This document shows positions 6,668-10,801 of a stretch of DNA of 32,642 nucleotides, in pieces; positions within the stretch are counted from its first letter, which is position 1; the number at the start of each line of letters is the position of its first letter. A model generated the notes under the pieces. The model saw nothing but the letters and a program-made list of their open reading frames with translations, ran no database searches and was not told where the DNA came from. Origin of the DNA: Nitrosomonadaceae bacterium (lineage in GTDB: Bacteria > Pseudomonadota > Gammaproteobacteria > Burkholderiales > Nitrosomonadaceae); contig BJGV01000016.1 in assembly GCA_014190895.1 (NCBI GenBank), positions 1 to 32,642 on the forward strand. Reading direction: 5' to 3'. A program made the position numbers and the translations under genes.

Positions 6668-8035
6668 TTAGAGTTCCGAGTCTAAGGAAATTTGTTGCCG
6701 ATCTGCAATAAATTTTAGAACGTTACCATTGATACAGTAGCGCTTAAAATTGGGAGCGGGACCGTCATTAAATACGTGACCAAGATGGATGCCTGAGCTT
6801 GCACTACGTACCTCGGTTCGTTTCATGTTATGGGAGTTATCTTCATGAAAAGTCACGGACCCTTCTACAGGGTTGAAAAAACTAGGCCATCCAGTTCCGC
6901 TTTCAAATTTTGCATTACTAAGAAAGAGCGTAGCACCGGTGATGGGATCAACAAATTTACCTGAGCGATTCTCATCTAAATTGGACGCTGTGAAGGGGAG
7001 TTCAGTTCCTTGTTTGAAGGCAACTGTTTGTTGTTCAGGTGAAAGCAAGTAAAAACCTAACCATTTCCAGAAGTTAATTTTTTCGCCATTGTAACCACTG
7101 TAGCGTGCGATTTCTTTGCCATTCTGGAATAGCACAATCGTGGGTGCCACAAATAAAGATTTCTGGAGTATCCAACCGGTTGGTGGCTTAGTATCAGTTG
7201 TCGCGACCACAGAAACATCAGTCCTCCAATGATTGAGCACATCTTTCTTAAATAGACTGCAGAATTCGCAATTCTCAGCTTCAAAAACAATTAATTGCTG
7301 CGCTAAACTTAAATTTTTAACTTTGAGCAGTTGAGTTTTCGTGTCGGATGTGACAGAGATTAGGGGAGTGAGTTTTGTTTGTGTCAGATCTTTAGTTGAT
7401 CTGGGGTATTTCACTCCTGTACCGCCAAGACCGCAGTACCCATTCGGATTTTTTTCTAGATAATTTTGGTGATACTCCTCAGCAGTTATATAATTTTTAA
7501 GTGGTAAGATTTCGGTAGTAATTTTTCCAAATCCAGCGGCACTGAGGGATCTTTGGTATTGTGACTGAGTGTCTAGAGCTGTAATTTTTTGATTTGTATT
7601 GTGATAATAAATAGCGCTACGGTAATTACTACCGAGATCATTGCCCTGACGATCCCCTTGAGTGGGATTGTGATTTTCCCAGAATCCGTTGAACAGAGTT
7701 TCTAATGTGACCTTCCGCGGATCAAAAGTGATCTTGATCACTTCCGCATGATTACGTGTCTTAACTCGTCCTGCGCGGAACGCTTTCTCGTGATTAAGGA
7801 TGTCCTGATACCCTATGTTAGGAAGATCTCCTCCCGCATAACCGCTTTCTATATCAATGACTCCAGGAATCTCTCCCATGCGTTTCTCTGCGCCCCAGAA
7901 ACAGCCCATTCCTAGGACAATAAAGTCCATTGTTTGTTTTTGAATCATAGTTCTCTCGGCTGCATGTGTCACCATTGTAATATTTAAACCCAATAGGATA
8001 ACCACGGTAAATTTTATTTTTAGCAGTTTATTCAT
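6668..8035 (-). CDS. msrAB: Periplasmic methionine sulfoxide reductase, MsrA-thioredoxin-like-MsrB fusion
   Basis: A 455-residue secreted repair enzyme that reduces both S- and R-methionine sulfoxide in proteins. A signal peptide spans residues 1 to about 25 (KLLKIKFTVVILLGLNITMV, cut after THA). MsrA follows, with catalytic Cys45 in GMGCFWGAE and a likely resolving Cys201 in NGYCGLGG. A thioredoxin-like domain at about 235-330 has CEFC (Cys256, Cys259) and a cis-Pro in VAPTIV. MsrB occupies about 340-455 with SGTGWPSFF, HLGHVFNDGP and catalytic Cys434 in RYCING; the zinc-binding CxxC pairs are absent. The start is ATG 8035; the in-frame TTG at 8053 adds six residues before a better signal peptide. 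The thioredoxin-like part presumably feeds electrons to both Msr domains. In the well-known neisserial PilB the thioredoxin domain comes first, so the order here is unusual. Confidence 0.92.
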   Translation of the reverse strand: MNKLLKIKFTVVILLGLNITMVTHAAERTMIQKQTMDFIVLGMGCFWGAEKRMGEIPGVIDIESGYAGGDLPNIGYQDILNHEKAFRAGRVKTRNHAEVIKITFDPRKVTLETLFNGFWENHNPTQGDRQGNDLGSNYRSAIYYHNTNQKITALDTQSQYQRSLSAAGFGKITTEILPLKNYITAEEYHQNYLEKNPNGYCGLGGTGVKYPRSTKDLTQTKLTPLISVTSDTKTQLLKVKNLSLAQQLIVFEAENCEFCSLFKKDVLNHWRTDVSVVATTDTKPPTGWILQKSLFVAPTIVLFQNGKEIARYSGYNGEKINFWKWLGFYLLSPEQQTVAFKQGTELPFTASNLDENRSGKFVDPITGATLFLSNAKFESGTGWPSFFNPVEGSVTFHEDNSHNMKRTEVRSASSGIHLGHVFNDGPAPNFKRYCINGNVLKFIADRQQISLDSEL

Positions 8036-8345
8036 TCTATTAAGAATTAACAAATATTTGGATAAGGTCTGTTAACGATCGTGTATCCTTCTAGTTAGAC
8101 TCCACATGCAAGCATTAGTTCGATTCTTTAATTTACAAGGGTCAATATATGTTAAAAATTGGTATGGTTACATCGGTGGTCATAATGTGCAAGATTTTGT
8201 TTCCGTAGATCAGTGAGCGCATGGAAAGTCTTATCCTGTTATTTCTCATCAAATGGTATTCTTATACCCCATCAAAAATTTATTATCTTTCTTCAACTGT
8301 ATACAAAATAGTATCATCTTGTGAATAATCCTTAGAATCTCGAAC
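8036..8345. other. Intergenic stretch, nothing firm
   Basis: These 310 AT-rich bases separate the divergent msr gene and the SemiSWEET gene, so both promoters should be here. I see one short plus-strand ORF (8106-8216, 36 codons, MQALVRFFNL...) without a clear ribosome binding site and with no recognised family. No convincing promoter, hairpin or RNA gene stands out. Confidence 0.4.
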
Positions 8346-8624
8346 ATGCCTATCATTCCCCATGCATTACCTGATCTTTGTAATCTTGTCGGCCATGTGG
8401 CAGCCATTTTAACGACTGTGGCATTTGTTCCTCAGGCCTTTAAATCTTGGCAGACCCGCGATCTTTCTGGCGTATCGCTTCCAATGTATAGTTTTTTTAC
8501 GGTAGGGGTAGTCATGTGGTTAATTTATGGCGTGATGTTAGACAGTTGGCCAATTATTATTGCTAATGCAATCACGATAGTACTTGCAGGCGTGGTATTA
8601 GTTTTGAAGGTCATACATCGATGA
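8346..8624 (+). CDS. SemiSWEET sugar transporter
   Basis: A 92-residue membrane protein of the SemiSWEET (MtN3/saliva, PQ-loop) family, three-helix half-transporters that dimerise to carry sugars by facilitated diffusion. Three hydrophobic helices are visible at about 12-30, 44-63 and 67-88. The family motif VAFVPQAFKSWQTRD at about 26-40 carries the conserved Pro-Gln, followed by the typical LSGVSLPMY. Length is normal for the family. The substrate is unknown. The stop overlaps the ATG of the LRR gene by 4 bases, so the pair is translationally coupled, which is an unexpected partner for a sugar transporter. Confidence 0.9.
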   Translation: MPIIPHALPDLCNLVGHVAAILTTVAFVPQAFKSWQTRDLSGVSLPMYSFFTVGVVMWLIYGVMLDSWPIIIANAITIVLAGVVLVLKVIHR

Positions 8625-10315
8625 TTTTTAACGAACAACATTTCCGGTTGGGTGCGTACGTATTGCGGGAACCCGATTACCAGCAAATTAAACTCTGGGC
8701 ACAAATCCTAAATTTATCAGCTGAAGAGACTTTGTTGAGATTAGAGAAAGCTCAGGGATTAAACTGGCTGGGACGTCCTATCGTTTTTGAAGTGAAAGAT
8801 GGCGCAATTATCAGTCTTGTCTGGGATTTTTTGAGGTTACCCATCCAGCATTTTGAGTGTGTGGCAGGATTAAAAATAAAAACGTTGCAATTCGTCCATA
8901 GACATCCAGGAGAAAAGCGATTCTTATTTATTCAATTACCATTACTTGAGACACTGCTTTGTATTAATACGGGCCTGAGAGCCTTAAATTTAAAAGGTGT
9001 GCCAAGACTTGTGGCATTAAGATGTCATGGCAATCAACTCACTGAATTAGATCTCTCTTGTATACCGAGATTGAACAAGCTCCTATGCTACGATAATCAA
9101 CTCAATGAGCTTGATCTCTCCCATGTACCAAAACTTATTAAACTTGGGTGTTCTAATAACCAACTTACTAAACTTAATCTAACTAATGTACCAGCACTGA
9201 TCAGTCTTAGGTGTTCCAAAAACCAACTAACCGAGCTTAATCTCTCCGTCGTATCAGAATTGACAGAGCTCTGGTGTGACGATAACCAACTTGTTGCGCT
9301 GTCTCTCTCCAGCGTCCCGAAATTGATCGGACTCTGGTGTGGTAGCAATCAGCTCACTGAATTGGATCTCTCTTTTGTGCCAGGGCTCACAGAATTAAGG
9401 TGTTATGGCAATCAGCTCACTGAGCTTAATCTTTCCAACGTGCCTAATTTGACAAAGCTTGGATGCTGGCATAACCAACTTACTAAACTTAATCTAACTA
9501 ATGTACCTAGATTGACCAAGCTTGGATGCTGGCATAACCAACTGATCGAACTTAATTTACTTAATGTGCCACGGTTGACAGAGCTTGGTTGTGCTATTAA
9601 TCAGCTGACTCAGTTAGATCTTTCTAATGTACCGATATTGACTGAGCTCTGGTGCGAGAACAATCAACTTACCGAGCTTAACCTAACTAATATACCTGAA
9701 TTGATAGAGCTCTGGTGTGGTGTCAATCAACTCGCCGAGCTCAATCTTTTATGCGTACCCAAGCTGACTAGGTTTGGTTGTGAGAGCAATCAATTGACCA
9801 AGCTTGATCTCTCGCATATACCGAGACTAAGAACGCTTGGATGCGATGACAATCAACTGAATACACTAGATCTCTCTAATGTACCAGTACTGATAACGCT
9901 TGAATGTTATAAAAATCAACTTACCAAATTGACTCTCTCCAATGTGCCCGTATTGACTGAACTTTGGTGCGGCAGCAATCAATTGACCAAGCTCCATTTC
10001 TCTAGCGTACCTGAGTTAGTAATGCTTGAATGCTACAATAACCAACTCACCGAGCTTGATCTTTCCAATGCATCCGGACTGTTAGAACTCTGGTGTGACA
10101 TCAACCAACTCACTGAACTTAATCTTTCCAATGTACCAGAATTGGTAAAACTCTGGTGTGGCAATAACCAACTTACCGAGCTCAATCTCTCCAATGTACC
10201 AGCATTGAACACACTTGAGTGTCATAACAATCAACTCACCGAGCTAGACATTCGATTAACCCCGTTACTTAATAATCATTTGCGTGTTGATGATAACATC
10301 AAGATCATACGATGA
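8621..10315 (+). CDS. Leucine-rich-repeat protein with 21 identical-length repeats
   Basis: A 564-residue protein without signal peptide or membrane segment, so probably cytoplasmic. Residues 1-107 form a non-repeat domain I do not recognise. Residues 108-548 are 21 tandem repeats of exactly 21 residues with core LTxLxCxxNQL followed by TxLxLSNVP. Cysteine at position 7 is present in all 21 repeats; NQL is present in all but the first. A 16-residue tail (...VDDNIKIIR) closes it. This LxC-x2-N-x-L type is known from bacterial LRR solenoids, notably in Bacteroidetes; repeats should stack into a curved beta solenoid used for protein binding. The gene is coupled to the SemiSWEET gene by a 4-base overlap. 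No partner or function can be assigned from sequence. Confidence 0.88.
   Translation: MIFNEQHFRLGAYVLREPDYQQIKLWAQILNLSAEETLLRLEKAQGLNWLGRPIVFEVKDGAIISLVWDFLRLPIQHFECVAGLKIKTLQFVHRHPGEKRFLFIQLPLLETLLCINTGLRALNLKGVPRLVALRCHGNQLTELDLSCIPRLNKLLCYDNQLNELDLSHVPKLIKLGCSNNQLTKLNLTNVPALISLRCSKNQLTELNLSVVSELTELWCDDNQLVALSLSSVPKLIGLWCGSNQLTELDLSFVPGLTELRCYGNQLTELNLSNVPNLTKLGCWHNQLTKLNLTNVPRLTKLGCWHNQLIELNLLNVPRLTELGCAINQLTQLDLSNVPILTELWCENNQLTELNLTNIPELIELWCGVNQLAELNLLCVPKLTRFGCESNQLTKLDLSHIPRLRTLGCDDNQLNTLDLSNVPVLITLECYKNQLTKLTLSNVPVLTELWCGSNQLTKLHFSSVPELVMLECYNNQLTELDLSNASGLLELWCDINQLTELNLSNVPELVKLWCGNNQLTELNLSNVPALNTLECHNNQLTELDIRLTPLLNNHLRVDDNIKIIR
8942..10264 (+). repeat. 21 tandem 63-bp LRR-coding units
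   Basis: The repeat block of the LRR gene is 1323 bases, exactly 21 units of 63 bases, with no unit longer or shorter. Most units have diverged in DNA, but some share long identical stretches: 37 bases at 9156-9192 and 9471-9507 (five units apart) and 26 bases at 9455-9480 and 9518-9543 (neighbouring units). This points to recent duplication or conversion inside the gene. Confidence 0.9.
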
Positions 10316-10417: not shown

Positions 10418-10801
10418 ATGGCAATTTTTACTCATGTTACTCTCGGTACAAATAATTTTGATGTAGCAATTAATTTTTACGACGCTGTATTGGGTGCGCT
10501 GAGTATTAATAATCTCGGAAAACTTCATGATACAGCCATGATGTACGGTAAAGAATCTTTTGAATTTGTAATTCTCACACCCTCAAATGGTGAGCCTGCC
10601 TGTAGTGCAAATGGCGGAACTATAGGGTTCGCAGCGGCCAATCGGAGTGCGGTAATCAAATTTCATGAAATCGGTTTGGCTAATGGCGGTATCGATGAAG
10701 GTAAGCCTGGCCCACGTAGTTTTGCTCCAAATGCTTATGCAGCTTATCTGCGGGATCCTGATGGCAATAAGATTGTTGCTCTTTGCTTTGCCCCGGAGTG
10801 A
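10418..10801 (+). CDS. VOC-family (glyoxalase/bleomycin resistance-like) protein
   Basis: A 127-residue protein of the vicinal oxygen chelate superfamily. It has the typical start IFTHVTLGTNNFDVAINFYDAVLG, the middle GGTIGFAA strand and the closing YLRDPDGNKIVALCF motif, where PDG-N-K-I marks the family. Possible metal ligands are His6 and acidic or polar residues of the closing strands, but the family members bind different metals and substrates and some are non-enzymatic. A good ribosome binding site (AAGGAG) precedes the ATG. Function is open. Confidence 0.85.
   Translation: MAIFTHVTLGTNNFDVAINFYDAVLGALSINNLGKLHDTAMMYGKESFEFVILTPSNGEPACSANGGTIGFAAANRSAVIKFHEIGLANGGIDEGKPGPRSFAPNAYAAYLRDPDGNKIVALCFAPE

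Follow-up and report, generated by a model that had tools for sequence, protein, structure and literature searches.

The IRREKO@LRR class of leucine-rich repeat (LRR) proteins rests on 134 proteins from 54 bacterial species, and its second (Cys) subtype has a 21-residue unit with the consensus LxxLxCxxNxLxxLDLxxxxx (Matsushima et al., 2010; PMC2946307). The form LxxLxCxxNxLxxLDLxxVxx is on record for Pnap_3264 of Polaromonas naphthalenivorans and for MldDRAFT_4836. In the main text of that study the Cys column is treated as part of the hydrophobic core, its place being taken by Leu, Val or Ile in the first subtype. The authors predict a beta-beta unit whose strands line both sides of the solenoid, and members with neither a signal peptide nor a transmembrane helix are termed intracellular (PMC2946307).

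The title of the internalin J (InlJ) study of Bublitz et al. (2008) mentions a cysteine ladder, and the PDB title of the Listeria structure 3bz5 reads "includes a cysteine ladder". InlJ is described as having a 21-residue repeat (worded loosely as '21 leucine residues') and 14 cysteines in all (PMC5915736), and as a sortase/LPXTG-anchored adhesin with a MucBP domain (PMC5915736, PMC7291126). As far as these accounts go, the described Cys-type relatives, InlJ of Listeria and of Porphyromonas, are surface proteins, and their function is therefore not transferable to the protein reported here. A literature search for Nitrosomonas together with leucine-rich repeat protein gave no match beyond a Pandoraea plasmid study.

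The stretch of DNA analysed here (the window; 32,642 nucleotides of contig BJGV01000016.1 from a Nitrosomonadaceae bacterium) contains the gene of a 564-residue protein that is most likely a cytosolic binding solenoid of Cys-subtype IRREKO repeats, carried as an accessory gene. The gene, its parts and its immediate neighbours are as follows.

6668-8053, minus strand: trifunctional MsrA/thioredoxin-like/MsrB gene (Pfam)
8346..8624, plus strand: SemiSWEET transporter gene directly upstream of the LRR gene (NCBIfam SemiSWEET_2, 110.5 bits, cut-off 80)
8621..10315, plus strand: LRR protein gene, an open reading frame with an ATG start, 564 aa (Pfam LRR_4, 2.2e-35)
8621..8941, plus strand: N-terminal 107 residues with no recognised family (profile libraries, PDB, pLDDT)
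8942..10264, plus strand: array of 21 x 21-residue (63-bp) Cys-type IRREKO LRRs, with Cys at position 7 of each (sequence, consensus, model strands)
10265..10312, plus strand: C-terminal 16 residues, a degenerate last repeat lacking the Cys (sequence; two short strands, pLDDT about 55)
10418-10801, plus strand: glyoxalase-superfamily gene downstream of the LRR gene

The sequence-only reading had described 21 exact repeats with a cysteine in each, and this description holds: residues 108-548 split without insertions into 21 units, each exactly 21 residues long, and Cys occupies repeat position 7 in 21/21 (14 TGT and 7 TGC codons). Asn-Gln-Leu follows in 20/21, as had also been stated, the exception being Thr-Gly-Leu in repeat 1. 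Leu is found at positions 2, 12 and 15 in every repeat, and Asn at position 10 and Gln at position 11 in 20/21 each. Position 5 is Leu in 20/21 (F in one), position 17 is Leu in 19/21 (F and I in the other two) and position 16 is D or N in 18/21. The resulting consensus is (x)LxxLxCxxNQLTxL(N/D)LSxVP. When residues 108-548 were shuffled (n=2000), the fullest column never held more than 7 Cys (mean 3.35), and the observed column is thus not due to chance. The protein has 24 cysteines in total, the other three being C80, C147 and C378. By eye, both flanks of the array carry degenerate repeat-like sequence (549-564, and about 74-107, where C80 lies), and some low-confidence strands are modelled there by AlphaFold2. 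No export signal is evident by hydropathy, the highest 19-residue Kyte-Doolittle mean within the first 60 residues being 0.56. This agrees with the earlier claim that such a signal is lacking, and from it we infer a cytosolic location.

Judged by its repeat sequence, the array falls into the IRREKO class of 21-residue LRRs, Cys subtype, and is of a known kind rather than a new one. The unit length is 21 residues in 21/21 repeats, the consensus fits LxxLxCxxNxLxxL(D/N)Lxxxxx, and the units stand in tandem with no spacers; some IRREKO members are likewise reported as intracellular. For a nested 10/11-residue periodicity, the position pairs 2/12 (L/L), 5/15 (L/L) and 7/17 (C/L) agree with expectation, but the pair 10/20 (N/V) does not. 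The Val of LxxVxx is present in 16/21 repeats. Measured against the main-text description of the subtype, the protein is set apart by Pro at the last repeat position (19/21 repeats), by its long unbroken Cys run and by an N-terminal region that was matched to nothing. Novelty of the repeat has to be given up, the Cys repeat class having been in print since 2010 and the cysteine ladder since 2008. A well-described family, which had been named as an outcome that would count against the sequence-only reading, does exist for the repeat array, and it was reached through the repeats and not through any N-terminal match.

To compare ladder lengths, the window and 60 loci, 61 sequences in all, were scanned for LxxLxC-type Cys at exact 21-residue steps; five of the loci overlap the window, and those that show ladders had been retrieved with the 564-aa protein as the query and are not a random sample. 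The present protein has the longest ladder (21), followed by two Ignavibacteria proteins (L002) with 17 and 10, whose N-termini look signal-like by eye, and by Aureispira (L055; 11), Tannerellaceae (L003; 7, 5 and 5), Aureibacter (L058; 6), Flavobacterium (L057; 3) and L010/L014 (3). No chain that reached the listing limit came from the loci of Vibrio, Mesorhizobium and Subdoligranulum (L056, L059, L060). The run of 21 is therefore long, but lies on a continuum with other ladders. L010 (G497:C51), from a genome of the same taxonomic class, has an 806-aa frame in which 13 Cys-type LRR cysteines are chained at unequal steps, and the region after them resembles, by eye, a Roc/COR GTPase.

The LRR solenoid that had been proposed is also predicted by AlphaFold2, which was given the single sequence and no alignment (pTM 0.67; pLDDT averaging 77.1 over the whole protein and 81-94 in blocks of ten residues from 131 to 530). 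In the model, a strand of at least three residues runs from repeat position 4 in 21/21 repeats and contains the Cys in 19/21, and a second strand of at least three residues lies near position 14 in 16/21, which matches the beta-beta prediction made for IRREKO. The best PDB match by phmmer is InlJ 3bz5 (3.9e-44), with repeats and cysteines aligned one on another. This alignment and the position of the Cys within the LxxLxC strand argue for the internal Cys column of the sequence-only reading. The same structure is the best Foldseek match (E 4.6e-11, 32% identity over 343 columns, rmsd 4.1; TM 0.47 by query and 0.58 by target) and the third row of VIA-align (Z 25.4, rmsd 5.3, 310 aligned), where YopM (27.1), a Leptospira LRR protein (26.0), SHOC2 (24.8) and SspH2 rows also appear. 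Because the VIA-align scores fall in a narrow band (Z about 24-27), the fold search indicates an LRR solenoid and does not single out InlJ. Among profile libraries, the NCBIfam InlJ model matches at 1.3e-79 (268.6 bits, far below its cut-off of 1700), the Pfam scan (E 0.01) gives LRR_4 along with three sub-cut-off families, and the best match of the whole protein in PHROGs is phrog_7816, of unknown function (1.9e-85, best stretch 381-550), with weaker families behind it.

In comparison with InlJ, the protein shares the cysteine ladder in 21-residue LRRs but has no MucBP domain (Pfam) and no LPXTG motif (by eye), and no signal is evident by hydropathy. Furthermore, within the stretch aligned by phmmer the InlJ ladder breaks, by eye, after 11 Cys, whereas here 21 are unbroken. 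With effectors of the YopM, SspH2 and SlrP type it has in common the LRR solenoid and similar structural scores. These effectors are built of 20-residue LPX repeats, another repeat type than that found here. Since injected effectors (YopM, SspH2) are found among the good structural matches alongside the adhesin InlJ, the protein could also be delivered by a signal-less route, as an injected LRR effector or an adhesin binding a eukaryotic or bacterial surface protein. The accessory nature of the gene would suit such a role, as would the match of the NCBIfam SlrP effector model to the LRR part (83.7 bits, against a cut-off of 1113). However, neither a NEL E3 ligase nor another effector domain was found in the Pfam scan at E 0.01, there is no obvious signal, and the family is presumed to consist of ammonia oxidisers, all of which makes delivery improbable. 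The sole secretion marker tried, DotI/IcmL (PF11393), was found in 0/61 genomes, but 14 controls were also empty and the result is uninformative.

The N-terminal 107 residues had been called unrecognised, and they stay so in Pfam (E up to 0.01), NCBIfam, PADLOC and PHROGs (E up to 1). Used alone as a query, they gave nothing usable in PDB sequences (best E 0.39), plasmids (2), phages (0.8) or viral contigs; prolyl 4-hydroxylase alpha-1 (PDB, E 0.39-0.72) was set aside as too weak. Five weak matches (L005-L009, E 0.01-0.09) were obtained among 398 other genomes of the order and were rejected as relatives, being short and low-scoring, with L007 lying inside an unrelated-looking 827-aa frame. Their E values of 0.0004-0.025 in a later search arise only from the tiny database of loci fetched with the same query. 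Several whole-protein alignments begin inside this region, at residue 10 in L002, at 56, 29 and 81 in the plasmid matches H10, H13 and H7, at 30 in the phage matches H27 and H28, and at 72 in G1185. With residues 1-107 alone, L002 and L058 (H10) gave no match at E 5, and L057 (H7) matched only at 3.5.

AlphaFold2 gives pLDDT below 50 over residues 1-85 (block means 24-43 over 1-80), and folding residues 1-198 alone brought no gain (26-46). With model confidence this low, residues 1-107 may still have a known fold. Two low-confidence helices are predicted (19-29 and 34-45), and these, with the sheer presence of 107 residues ahead of the array, would fit a functional domain, e.g., an enzyme or nucleic-acid binder, for which the LRR array acts as target sensor, as in defence and signalling proteins. 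This arrangement is rather unlikely given the empty searches of the four profile libraries and the five weak matches in the order; in addition, the last 30 or so of the 107 residues look by eye like a degenerate first repeat or N-cap, leaving perhaps about 75 over. In a related proposal, residues 1-107 would be a small undescribed domain, and the protein a cytosolic LRR receptor or scaffold particular to one lineage and tied to the SemiSWEET, e.g., sensing or gating sugar uptake; this is regarded as quite improbable.

For the preferred cytosolic binding solenoid, each repeat would contribute one LxxLxC strand with its Cys and both Leu turned inwards. Stacked 21 times, these strands would give an elongated solenoid with a buried Cys column, presumably reduced in the cytosol, and an Asn column, both serving core packing rather than making the ladder a catalytic or redox device. 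The most variable repeat columns are 1, 3, 4, 6, 8, 9 and 19 (2.2-3.0 bits), with lower values of 1.1-1.7 bits at positions 13, 14, 16, 18 and 20. Positions 4, 6, 8 and 9 lie on the strand-side face in LRRs generally. Here they are variable (2.52, 2.17, 3.02 and 2.82 bits) and often occupied by Trp, Tyr, Gly or charged residues, which makes this the likely binding face for a protein or other polymeric partner. The earlier suggestion of selection for a smooth binding surface does not fit, as these four positions are among the seven most variable columns and it is the core that is constant.

Recent homogenisation of the repeats was rejected as the main process: protein identity at lag 1 (0.579) is no higher than at lag 11 (0.581). 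At the DNA level, identity is 0.617 at lag 1 and 0.592 at lag 11. Where two repeats share a residue at one of the eight core columns (1581 comparisons), their codons differ in 60.2% of cases; random codon draws from the gene's own usage would give 65.3%. Silent sites near saturation beside nearly invariant core residues point to purifying selection on the core. The mismatch is slightly lower between adjacent repeats (83/153, 54%) and three repeat pairs (19/20, 9/10 and 4/9) reach 81% DNA identity, so some later local duplication is possible; Tandem Repeats Finder (TRF) reports three partial 63-bp arrays. The array thus appears to be mostly old and under purifying selection, with at most modest recent local duplication.

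Twenty-one aligned cysteines next to a methionine sulfoxide reductase gene also raise the idea of a redox or metal-binding column, perhaps tied to that MsrAB gene; the only hint of metal comes from Pfam, where residues 345-360, inside the array, score 19.7 bits against the ZPR1 zinc finger, below its cut-off of 23. Such a role is highly improbable. An equal column in InlJ and other IRREKO proteins is described in the main text on the class as hydrophobic core, with Leu, Val or Ile in its place in the first subtype; the MsrAB gene is transcribed away from the SemiSWEET-LRR pair; and none of 49 family genomes with MsrAB relatives has a convincing match to the LRR gene. The inheritance of MsrAB itself looks patchy from sequence matches: near-full-length relatives (64-71% identity) occur in those 49 family genomes, which all belong to two other genera, and 7 congeners have only separate MsrAB domain matches (about 39-51% identity). 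Were the solenoid purified, its 21 buried cysteines from a reducing compartment would give a clean test of the InlJ-type ladder as plain core packing.

The last 4 bases of the SemiSWEET gene overlap the start codon of the LRR gene (ATGA), and the two are therefore probably translated together. SemiSWEET matches were found in 19/124 other family genomes (78-82% identity in three) and in 0/7 congeners, and no LRR frame was seen by eye near SemiSWEET in the loci of six relatives (first 110 residues, frames of at least 80 aa). A promoter and terminator scan scored below the shuffled mean. On the other side, the glyoxalase-superfamily gene, which looks like a mobile accessory gene, is 83-91% identical in eight other family genomes, and a Liv-type ABC transporter lies beyond it. 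When 22 window queries were compared with eight glyoxalase regions (seven from the high-identity genomes and one from a more distant genome) in search of an empty site, only the glyoxalase gene matched, with weak ABC matches in one region.

The LRR gene is single-copy in its source genome (1.32 Mb, 25 contigs, listed as 99.97% complete). No match was found at E 1e-3 in 60 other relatives. The family search gave one weak match in 124 other genomes (E 0.007), by eye inside a trpE-like frame. Broader samples gave 4/368 others in the class (E 1e-5) and 5/397 others in the phylum (E 1e-8), none aligned ahead of residue 72. By tblastn, LRR relatives occur in 33/72,556 plasmid records and 20/50,697 phage records, all below 60% identity; the species-genome collection holds 2 loci, and the viral contigs no relative of the whole protein. 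On these matches, the gene is most likely an accessory gene of one lineage, near-absent from the sampled relatives. Its GC content (41.0%) differs little from the 40.3% of the window, and composition therefore gives no sign of recent import.

In keeping with Nitrosomonadaceae, the family probably consists of ammonia oxidisers: ammonia monooxygenase (PF02461) is present in 14/24 of its other members, four of which carry three copies, and in 0/16 other genomes of the order and 0/14 control genomes. PF02461 had no match in the source genome, despite its listed completeness, though 3/7 congeners have it; this may reflect a real loss or an absent, repeat-collapsed contig. The protein has mainly catalogue value, as a long, perfectly regular Cys-ladder LRR that is apparently cytosolic and comes from a small genome related to presumed ammonia oxidisers.

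Much of the remaining window is chromosomal housekeeping (prfB, ispDF, tsaB, truB, infB, nusA). The motif CTTTGAC with an in-frame TGA lies at 2574-2580 on the minus strand, just upstream of the prfB frame at 1554-2468, and we take this motif to be that of the prfB programmed frameshift. The release factor 2 gene appears to carry the classical frameshift and to continue in another frame, which is ordinary for it.
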